Part shown: in pieces, positions 7,857 through 15,999 of the stretch
Layout: every line of letters begins with the position of its first letter
Numbering within the stretch: the first letter of the stretch is position 1
Source of the DNA: a virus
Direction: 5' to 3' (one strand)
Virus record (IMG/VR): IMGVR_UViG_3300005664_000040
Location: 1 to 30,360 of that record
DNA: 30,360 bases
Made by a program: the position numbers and the translations under genes
Notes under the pieces: model-generated
Told to the model about the DNA's origin: nothing
Seen by the model: the letters and a program-made list of their open reading frames with translations, nothing else
Database searches by the model: none

Positions 7857-8156
7857 TCATTTGCCAGCGGCCTTTTTCCATGCTTCCAAGGCATGAAATA
7901 GAGAGTTTGGAGTCACAAAACAATACTGACATTGCGCTTGTCCAGCGTCTTCCGTGCTTGGCTGACGATACCAATACCATCCTTGATCGGGACAGTCGGG
8001 GCATCGCTCCGCTGTTATGGTATTCTCGGCAGCCTCCAAGCGAGCGAGGAGGGCTTGAGCATGGTCCATAAAAACAGTCAAACATCCGTCCTGTTCTTTT
8101 ATCCCTTCGGTTATTTTCTCTTTCAACCGCTTCAAATCCTCGTCAGTAAACGTCAT
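7857..8156 (-). CDS. hypothetical protein with CxxC pairs
   Basis: 99 residues from ATG 8154-8156, which has GGGGGAG upstream and overlaps the previous stop as ATGA; an in-frame ATG 22 codons upstream lacks support. The first half is helical (FTDEDLKRLKEKITEGIKEQ, then an Ala/Leu helix). The second half has CPDC and CQYC pairs about 20 residues apart, a likely zinc ribbon with Trp/Tyr-rich filling. Small helix-plus-ribbon proteins of this kind are common in phage early regions; function unknown. Confidence 0.65.
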   Translation of the reverse strand: MTFTDEDLKRLKEKITEGIKEQDGCLTVFMDHAQALLARLEAAENTITAERCPDCPDQGWYWYRQPSTEDAGQAQCQYCFVTPNSLFHALEAWKKAAGK

Positions 8157-9079: not shown

Positions 9080-9258
9080 TTCCGCACCCCCTCAATCACG
9101 GCCACCGCCAGCATCCCAGCGACGACCAAGAGCCAGAGAGGGACAATGCCTCTCTTATTAATTCCAAAACATCCCCCGCCGAGCTTAGGATTAACCACTA
9201 CAGAGAATCCTGTCCCTTTCGGGTCCTTTTTATTTAGATGCTCGACGGAGAAATTCAT
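9076..9258 (-). CDS. small membrane protein
   Basis: 60 residues. The C-terminal third is a transmembrane helix (VPLWLLVVAGMLAVAVIEGV), preceded by a basic NKRG. The N-terminal half is soluble and Gly-rich. ATG overlaps the methyltransferase stop (ATGA). A shortened relative of its NKRG-IVPLWLL segment is found at 9987-10043 upstream of the methyltransferase, suggesting local duplication. Function unknown. Confidence 0.65.
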   Translation of the reverse strand: MNFSVEHLNKKDPKGTGFSVVVNPKLGGGCFGINKRGIVPLWLLVVAGMLAVAVIEGVRK

Positions 9259-9986
9259 TTTAATCCCATCAACCTTTCAAAGGCTTCTCGCGCTTGGGCC
9301 GGAACCACTGAGTTACCGAGGGAGTGGATTCTATTTCTGTCCATGAAAACGCGTACCCCATTGCGTTCTCGTACAGGGAAACCACGTTCGTCCATTCCAG
9401 TCCATTTATGAGAGCTATGGTTGCTAATGACGGGGAATGCCTTTCTCTGGCCGCCAGGAATGCTTTTGTCCTGCTTAAATCCTTCCCATCCCTTGCGTTC
9501 GGCGTGGCCCAACAGCCACCATCTATCTCGCCTGTGCTGCGCTCCCACATCCGCAGCGGATAAAATTCCCCATCGACAGTCATACCGTAGGCGGCAAAGC
9601 TCCCCAACAACTCGTTCTGCTCCTCGAACAGTGATCGCTGATACGTTCTCCAGGAATACGAATCGCGGTCGTATCTCGCCAATGAGCCGAGCGATCTCGA
9701 AGAATAAACCGCTTCGCTTTCCTTCCAGGCCAGCTCCGCGTCCCGCAACAGAAATGTCTTGGCATGGAAATCCTCCGTAGATAATATCGACCCTTGGAAT
9801 GTAGGTTCCGCGTAGCGTGGTAACGTCATCCCATATCGGTGCAAGCGGGAGGTCTCCTGTAGCCATTCGTGATAAGAGAACGGCTTGAGCGTATCGGTCG
9901 TTTTCACAGTAAGCGACAGGGGTGACGTATCCTTCAAGGGCTTTGGTGATTCCTCCGATACCGCTAAATAAATCCAAGCCATACAC
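9255..9986 (-). CDS. C5 cytosine DNA methyltransferase (orphan)
   Basis: The 243-residue enzyme transfers a methyl group from S-adenosylmethionine to cytosine C5. Motif I is DLFSGIGG (residues 5-12), motif IV GGFPCQDIS with catalytic Cys75, motif VI ENV (113-115), motif VIII QHRRDR (150-155), and motif X GNSVVP (224-229). The target-recognition region between VIII and X is only about 65 residues, so the enzyme is compact. GTG at 9984-9986 with GGGAG upstream is the start giving the complete motif I. No restriction partner is adjacent, so it probably protects phage DNA from host restriction. Target sequence cannot be read off. Confidence 0.93.
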   Translation of the reverse strand: MYGLDLFSGIGGITKALEGYVTPVAYCENDRYAQAVLLSRMATGDLPLAPIWDDVTTLRGTYIPRVDIIYGGFPCQDISVAGRGAGLEGKRSGLFFEIARLIGEIRPRFVFLENVSAITVRGAERVVGELCRLRYDCRWGILSAADVGAQHRRDRWWLLGHAERKGWEGFKQDKSIPGGQRKAFPVISNHSSHKWTGMDERGFPVRERNGVRVFMDRNRIHSLGNSVVPAQAREAFERLMGLK

Positions 9987-11696: not shown

Positions 11697-12450
11697 AGTC
11701 TTTCCCCCCTTGTTTGGCTTTCCATTCGTGCGCCCATCGGACTATCGTTTCCAGCGTCCACGACTTTTCCCCCATACTTTCTGATACCTCGTCAATACAG
11801 GCCCGCGCGGACTCATACGAGCCGCAGACCTTCAAAACGGCAGAGGCAGCTTTAGCAGAGCGCGGCCAGTGCGTCTTGTCCCAAGACCGGTCGTCAAACG
11901 GGATCGTCTTCTTGACCGCCTTGTAGTACATCACCAAAGCCGCGGTCGGGTCTTCTTTCGGCTCCGGGATTCGATATTCCCGTAATTCCACCGGTTGGAT
12001 GGGTTCGCGCGGTAGCGCGATATCTTGGTGTTGTAGTTGACGTCTTCTAACGTCTTGAACGTCTAACTTCTTTAACGTCTTTAACGTCTTGTCTGTTACG
12101 GAAGCGTTACTGATAGCGTTACTGCGGAACCTCTTTTGACGATTCGCCGCGTTTTTATAGTGCGAATCTTCTCTTAACATTCTGCGGTTTTCAAGCGTTA
12201 CTAAATTGTTACGGTCCGTTACGCGTAACACTTTAGCCGACAACTCCGCGATGATCCTTGGGGCCGATTCCCAAGGGATTCCGGTCACTCTGGCGAACTG
12301 GTTATAGTCCCCCACCCATCGCCCGCGCTCTTGTGCGTTCCACATCAAACAAAGGATGTCTATGAGGCACCCTTTAGCTTCGGCTGATAGCTCCCGGGTG
12401 TCGTTCATCCAATCGTAAGGATGAAATTTAATCCAGTGCAATTTAGGCAT
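11464..12450 (-). CDS. DUF1376-type replication protein
   Basis: 328 residues. Residues 4-60 (KLHWIKFHPYDWMNDTRELS, LSAEAKGCLIDILCLMW) match DUF1376, typical of phage replication-organiser proteins. A basic linker (residues 85-150) leads to a helical region around 165-245 (AALVMYYKAVKK, ESARACIDEVSESMG, WTLETIVRWAHEW) like the C-terminal helicase-loading part of such proteins. It likely brings the replicative helicase to the phage origin. ATG 12450 is six bases after a GGGGGG ribosome site that can be trapped in a stem of the leader. The last ~77 codons overlap the next gene. Confidence 0.75.
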   Translation of the reverse strand: MPKLHWIKFHPYDWMNDTRELSAEAKGCLIDILCLMWNAQERGRWVGDYNQFARVTGIPWESAPRIIAELSAKVLRVTDRNNLVTLENRRMLREDSHYKNAANRQKRFRSNAISNASVTDKTLKTLKKLDVQDVRRRQLQHQDIALPREPIQPVELREYRIPEPKEDPTAALVMYYKAVKKTIPFDDRSWDKTHWPRSAKAASAVLKVCGSYESARACIDEVSESMGEKSWTLETIVRWAHEWKAKQGGKDYGATNSTRFYDAVAKQRTNSKFAGLRANATAGQILDSVRDMQRLQLEAEGTDIGASRDADENVVAGIREDAVEAEAD

Positions 12451-12547
12451 AAAAAACCCCCCACGGATGCAACAGATACCCTGAGAGGTGAAGGCTGCAG
12501 AGCCGTGGAGGAAATGGAGAGGTGTCGGATTTTCTCAGGGTATCCAT
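12443..12547 (-). CDS. possible 34-residue leader peptide
   Basis: ATG 12545-12547 opens an uninterrupted frame through the whole structured leader, ending TAA at 12443-12445 inside the first codons of the replication gene (eight-base overlap). The product is Leu/Pro/Ser-rich (MDTLRKSDTSPFPPRLCSLH and on). AAGGA sits 11 bases upstream, but promoter P3 predicts a start at or near this ATG, giving a leaderless message. Translation through it would melt the stems. It could be coincidental. Confidence 0.35.
   Translation of the reverse strand: MDTLRKSDTSPFPPRLCSLHLSGYLLHPWGVFYA
12451..12547 (-). promoter_or_regulatory. structured 5' leader: interleaved stems, SD-sequestering pseudoknot or attenuator
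   Basis: Stem 1 pairs GATACCCTGAGA (12544-12533) perfectly with TCTCAGGGTATC (12486-12475). Stem 2 pairs CCTCCACGG (12511-12503) with CCGTGGGGG (12466-12458), nine pairs including one wobble. The arms are interleaved (1, 2, 1', 2'), the topology of an H-type pseudoknot. The 3' arm of stem 2 contains the GGGGGG ribosome site of the replication gene, and it is followed by TTTTTT, so stem 2 could either block initiation or terminate transcription. The leader starts at the predicted P3 transcript start. Confidence 0.6.
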
Positions 12548-12554
12548 GTGTGTG

Positions 12555-12583
12555 ATTTTCCTTTTTCTATTTCCAAGTGTCAA
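12555..12583 (-). promoter_or_regulatory. promoter P3, sigma-70 type, for the replication gene
   Basis: A perfect TTGACA at 12583-12578, 17-bp spacer, and GAAAAT (four of six) at 12560-12555. It overlaps the 3' end of the upstream gene and predicts a transcript start at about 12549-12547, right before stem 1 of the leader. Confidence 0.6.
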
Positions 12584-15723: not shown

Positions 15724-15999
15724 TTAGGCGTAGTGCTTGACCGTTTTAACCCCGGTCCGCGTAAAAGCCACTTCGTATGATTTCACTTTGTGCCCCTTTG
15801 AACAAAAAGAATCAAGGACCGTTCTTTCTAGGTGTACAACTCGGGTGTCGTACTCGTTGCTTAATTCCATTGCTATACGATTGGCGTCGTCATACGATTT
15901 AAATTCCCCTGCTTTGTACCACACGCCAAGCCGAACCCTATAGTGGACGCCGTATAGATCGTTTAACTTTTCCAAACCGTCCGTGCATTCCTTTTTCAT
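15724..15999 (-). CDS. first gene of the P2 transcript, hypothetical
   Basis: 91 residues, mixed alpha/beta (EKLNDLYGVHYRVRLGVWYK, YDDANRIAMELSNEYDTRVV) resembling a small SPOR- or ferredoxin-like sandwich, though no family can be named. Cys66 and His70 are close together. AAAGGAGGATAT precedes ATG 15999. It lies about 27 bases downstream of the expected P2 transcript start, so it should be among the earliest and strongest expressed proteins. Confidence 0.7.
   Translation of the reverse strand: MKKECTDGLEKLNDLYGVHYRVRLGVWYKAGEFKSYDDANRIAMELSNEYDTRVVHLERTVLDSFCSKGHKVKSYEVAFTRTGVKTVKHYA

Follow-up and report, generated by a model that had tools for sequence, protein, structure and literature searches.

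We asked whether the short leader ahead of a phage replication gene holds a structured RNA and, if so, what this RNA may control. The window, i.e. the whole stretch of DNA that was analysed, is a 30,360-bp record of an uncultured phage whose genes include a P22-type portal (PF16510, with a score below the cut-off), RecT, an exonuclease, RusA and a DUF1376/primosomal-type replication gene, hereafter rep. The replication region is read on the minus strand, and the leader fills a 116-nt gap between a 70-aa ORF, which ends at 12567, and rep, which starts at 12450. The initial annotation had placed there a promoter, two interleaved stems as in an H-type pseudoknot and a possible leader peptide, controlling rep by trapping of its ribosome site or by attenuation. 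We know of few structured leaders at phage replication operons that have comparative support.

The features of the locus, all on the minus strand, are as follows.

12555..12583: promoter, TTGACA (12583-12578), 17-nt spacer and GAAAAT (12560-12555), with a predicted start at about 12549-12547
12443..12547: upstream ORF of 34 codons, whose stop overlaps the rep start by 8 nt
12533..12544: 5' arm of stem S1, GATACCCTGAGA, at the predicted RNA 5' end
12503..12511: 5' arm of stem S2, CCTCCACGG, overlapping the end of the invariant CCATTTCC (12517-12510)
12494..12499: 5' arm of stem S3, TGCAGC, the inner extension of S2
12475..12486: 3' arm of S1, TCTCAGGGTATC, pairing with 12544-12533
12468..12473: 3' arm of S3, GTTGCA
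12458..12466: 3' arm of S2, CCGTGGGGG, including most of the GGGGGG ribosome site of rep
12451..12456: T6 run from S2 to the rep ATG, a full U-run in the window phage only
11464..12450: rep, a 328-aa DUF1376/primosomal-type replication protein (PF07120, E 1.4e-5, below the curated cut-off; phrog_9327, E 2.6e-7)
12046..12089: iteron-like repeats (A)AGACGTTA within rep

Stems and fold of the window leader

At the positions proposed, S1 is a perfect 12-bp helix. It is the sole perfect inverted repeat of at least 11 bp with arms within 100 nt across the 30-kb window, for which about 0.1 such repeats are expected by chance (4 in 40 shuffled windows), and 3 of 20,000 shuffles of the leader equalled it. 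S2 was also found as described, interleaved with S1, with 9 bp including one U-G pair and extendable to 10 bp. Taken alone it is mildly unusual, as at least 9 bp were reached in 289 of 2000 shuffles and its energy in 25 of 2000. The GGGGGG (12462-12457), the T6 run and the rep ATG at 12450 are likewise in place. As a repeated protein operator, S1 was rejected, with 21 three-mismatch matches compared to 17 expected.

Two features had been missed by the initial annotation, namely S3 (12499-12494 with 12473-12468) and the existence of nested alternatives, S1 alone versus S2+S3, which are near-isoenergetic. The nested fold of the window RNA prefers S2 extended by S3, with S1 almost as stable; during stepwise growth of the RNA, S1 forms first and is later displaced by S2+S3. 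The unpaired probability of the rep Shine-Dalgarno sequence (SD) is mostly below 0.2. Together with the T6 run, S2+S3 reaches −28.1 kcal/mol and is one of two terminator-like outlier hairpins on the coding strand. The other, at about 16288 (minus strand, −27.9 kcal/mol), precedes a strong promoter, TTGACA-17-TATACT (16061-16033, minus strand), that is followed by AAGGAGG and a gene at 15999; this region is likely the head of the recombination operon.

Homologous leaders in other phages

A DNA similarity search of phage records gave no direct relatives of the window, a single-sequence search with the rep protein gave no homologues, and the S1 arms used as an exact pattern had no match. Three homologous leaders were nevertheless found in other uncultured phages: L052 (IMGVR_UViG_3300020021_000064), G007 (in L016; IMGVR_UViG_3300028800_000036, 39 kb) and L011 (IMGVR_UViG_3300042090_000274). 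G007 and L011 were retrieved through the portal alignment, and L052 by a DNA-pattern scan from the in-rep repeats common to the window and G007. The leader itself gave a weak BLASTN match to G007 (71% over 70 nt, E 0.03), and the homology of the L052 leader was recognised by reading its sequence; that phage has a rep that is 54% identical over 132 residues. The L011 leader was picked out by a sequence-free S1+S2 descriptor, which alone gives many chance matches. A covariance model (R1) recovered all four leaders and no others, in single copy per genome, and a second model (R2) returned nothing convincing from 42 further records.

A search with a two-sequence rep alignment (A2) added 10 distant rep homologues in viral contigs and none in genomes. 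These 10 are without the leader, and their rep start abuts or overlaps the upstream stop. In the distant homologues L019 and L020, rep holds a different repeated 7-mer, TGTAACG, present five times.

The iteron-like repeats recur with the same motif and place in three phages (window 12046-12089, L016 1506-1543, L052 about 8050-8083), whose rep proteins are 39-54% identical; by analogy with lambda O, they are a candidate origin within the gene. The iteron pattern also led to dense tandem arrays of GACGTTA in the unrelated viral contigs L075, L091, L101 and L078. In the same three phages, a conserved gene overlaps the 3' end of rep by about 150-230 nt in another frame (gene/rep: window 11337-11696/11464-12450; L016 948-1337/1186-1899; L052 7494-7856/7645-8442), with products 33% identical.

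Base pairing is conserved in four leaders

The check called for by the initial annotation was covariation of both stems in homologues. S1, S2 and S3 are kept in all four leaders through compensatory changes. In the alignment of the paired arms, which leans towards the proposed stems because it was hand-cut to them, 98 of 100 cells pair, with two-sided changes at 12 of the 25 pairs (5 in S1 and 7 in S2/S3). No shuffle out of 500 was as good as the observed pairing, and sliding the register by 1-3 nt lowers the paired fraction to 40-47%; these stem statistics rest on four sequences. As an independent check, a covariance model was built from the whole leaders of the three relatives with the window left out. 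It finds 12544-12448 of the window with 39.1 bits and an E of 5e-8 in 0.6 Mb, the next best hit having an E of 0.33.

Across the leaders, S1 has 11-12 bp and S2 has 9 bp extended by S3, with loops L1 of 18-21, L2 of 10-16 and L3 of 5-8 nt, consistent with one pseudoknot plan. The invariant sequence includes CCATTTCC before and at S2, and CCT ahead of the 3' arm of S1. The comparison thus supports selection on both interleaved stems of a structured leader. That the repeats arose by chance is scarcely credible: S2 alone is only mildly unusual, which would fit, but the covariation and the held-out match refute this explanation unless the four loci were misassembled.

Searching the 4227 models of Rfam gave no match in the window at the gathering thresholds, and none up to an E of 1 for the window leader and its three relatives; no description of such a leader was found in the literature. 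The leader constitutes a new RNA family. Its kind, that of 5' pseudoknot leaders, is known, and its position at the 5' terminus is unusual.

Promoter and predicted transcript start

The TTGACA-17-GAAAAT promoter is present where it had been annotated; the match alone is unremarkable, 0.6 such sites being expected by chance per window. In all four leaders, a perfect TTGACA precedes a conserved AUG, at distances of 36, 38, 36 and 38 nt, with GAAAAT, TAACAT, CATAAT and TACTAT as −10 candidates. This spacing places the predicted RNA start at the 5' edge of S1, in agreement with the earlier proposal, and the leader RNA probably begins at S1 in all four phages. In G007 (L016 3085-3252), a small NikA/ribbon-helix-helix-like gene, which may encode a transcriptional regulator, is oriented divergently to the leader promoter.

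The upstream ORF is conserved in position but not in peptide

The 34-codon ORF (12547-12443) indeed runs through the leader. All four leaders keep its AUG at S1 and an open frame from there, which ends 8 (window), 22, 4 and 4 nt beyond the start of the next gene. The probability that all four are open by chance is 0.026 (product, by shuffling), openness alone being weak support. In the window, the codon usage of this ORF is like that of non-coding frames. A peptide conserved at the codon level would keep one frame over the conserved sequence, whereas over CCATTTCC and GGGTA the four leaders use frames 0, 2, 2 and 1. Considering that these conserved motifs are read in three different frames, it is the RNA that is conserved and not the peptide, the opposite of the outcome named beforehand as adverse to the pseudoknot (codons conserved and base pairs not).

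The suggestion of a leader peptide therefore holds for the ORF and its overlap with the next start, and fails for the identity of the peptide. Codon usage in the window and the frame shifts among the four leaders also led us to reject the ORF as an ordinary gene. Translation per se may matter, while the amino acids appear not to. For an RNA beginning at the AUG, the ORF would be without an SD and would require leaderless initiation.

Downstream genes, ribosome sites and U-runs vary

In the four phages, the leader sits ahead of replication-region genes and of the block leading on to the portal. The next gene is rep in the window, a 46-aa gene and then rep in L052, a 53-aa gene in G007, where an N6/N4 methylase follows and rep lies about 1 kb downstream, and a 34-codon ORF followed by a helicase-methylase in L011, a contig with no detectable rep homologue. 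Contrary to what had been assumed, the leader is thus not tied to rep: rep is immediately next in the window only, and its distant homologues are without the leader.

Trapping of the SD in S2 was borne out in the window and G007 and not in L052 and L011, because in the latter two the SD (AAGGAG and AGGGAGG) is some 10 nt past S2, and the S1 fold of L011 instead engages the SD in pairing with CUCUCC. An intrinsic-terminator attenuator would have a hairpin and a U-run in all members, and attenuation at the U6 does not generalise either, since the run is found in the window only; at its site stand TTCTATTTA in L052 and L011 and TTATTTATG in G007. As neither the U6 nor an SD within the stem is universal and the next gene varies, the function common to the four is neither copy control specific to rep nor attenuation at a terminator.

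Proposed function and alternatives

All four leaders share the promoter, the stems S1/S2/S3 at their 5' end and an ORF that overlaps the start of the next gene, and we therefore favour control of translation initiation. Our preferred reading, which we hold as an even call, is that of a conserved cis-acting leader RNA gating translation of the phage replication operon. It builds on the conserved structure, ORF geometry and promoter position as observed, and from these we infer the transcript start, the assignment of OFF and ON states and a ribosome or factor as trigger. The TTGACA-17-xAxxAT promoter would start the RNA within a few nt of S1, and S1 and S3-extended S2 would fold as an H-type pseudoknot or switch to and from the S2+S3 hairpin. 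With the structure closed, the upstream ORF would have its AUG at or adjoining the first S1 pair and, in the window and G007, the ribosome site of the next gene would lie within S2, so that initiation would be low. A ribosome on the upstream ORF, or a bound factor, would open the structure and turn the operon on, with coupling from the ORF to the next gene because the stop of the first overlaps the start of the second.

More tentatively, the leader may represent a new class in which the transcript 5' end is locked in a pseudoknot of some 25 bp, with S1 placed coaxially on S3/S2. On steric reasoning of ours, stacking of S1 on S3 would be feasible, the 5' end then lying at their junction. Such a lock might tie RNA stability, the upstream ORF start and the next-gene ribosome site into one switch for the replication region, triggered perhaps by a ligand, a protein or the ribosome.

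The main rival is protein-bound repression as in T4 gene 32, where a replication or recombination protein would bind the pseudoknot and repress its own operon; we consider it rather unlikely, though worth weighing. The gene 32 mRNA of T4 and RB69 has a 5' pseudoknot operator of about 28 nt, recognised by gp32 and followed by UUAAA repeats (PMC535899). Here too, a covarying 5' pseudoknot lies upstream of a ribosome site, ahead of replication-region genes in the four phages, and the invariant unpaired CCAUUU could be a contact. In contrast, the present leader is about 90 nt long, begins at the predicted 5' end of the RNA, shares sequence with an ORF and is followed by genes that differ between the phages; in the sequences after S2, read directly, no UUAAA or UAAA repeats were seen. 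Since the downstream genes differ and the L011 contig is without a detectable rep homologue, one regulator need not be common to all. An attenuator, in which S2+S3 with the U-run would be an intrinsic terminator and S1 would favour read-through, is unlikely. The outlier hairpin of the window and the near-isoenergetic alternatives agree with it, but the U-run is not conserved in the three relatives, and S1 is not a classical antiterminator because its arms have no bases in common with those of S2/S3.

A little less probable is a role in 5'-end protection or as a stand-alone small RNA, for instance a replication primer or a regulator; the promoter would then yield a short structured transcript that is shielded from decay by its paired 5' end or that works in trans or at the origin nearby. 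S1 stands at the predicted 5' end in all four leaders, iteron repeats lie downstream inside rep in three phages and RNA-based prophage origins exist (PMC7157519), but a cis-acting element is indicated by the overlap between the ORF and the following gene, which is conserved, and by the short distance of 6-19 nt from S2 to the start codon. Control as in I-complex plasmids, by leader-peptide translation with an antisense RNA, is very improbable. Leader pseudoknot control of repB-repA (IncI repZ) is outlined in PMC10286972 (Asano and Mizobuchi 1998 cited there), and the window shares with it a replication gene behind a leader ORF that overlaps its start by 8 nt and a pseudoknot-forming leader. 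Unlike in those plasmids, no antisense sigma70-like promoter of at least 9/12 was found in the four leaders, the ribosome site is inside a stem in two of the four, and a gene other than rep comes next in the relatives. The preQ1 and SAM-V riboswitches are also H-type pseudoknots with SD control (PMC11625349, PMC6061858) and resemble the leader as small 5' pseudoknots adjoining a ribosome site; they differ in that the leader has no Rfam match and no known ligand, and its genes are of the phage replication region and not metabolic.

The phages, with portal and replication proteins only 32-59% identical, share a compact self-contained module of promoter, pseudoknot and ORF overlap. The covariance model can be used to find more members, and the module offers a clean test of post-transcriptional timing of phage replication genes.

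Additionally, two long ORFs of the window lie on the same strand and overlap almost completely (9255-9986 and 9269-9982); one product is cytosine DNA methyltransferase-like, and the other, of 237 aa and in another frame, looks protein-like.
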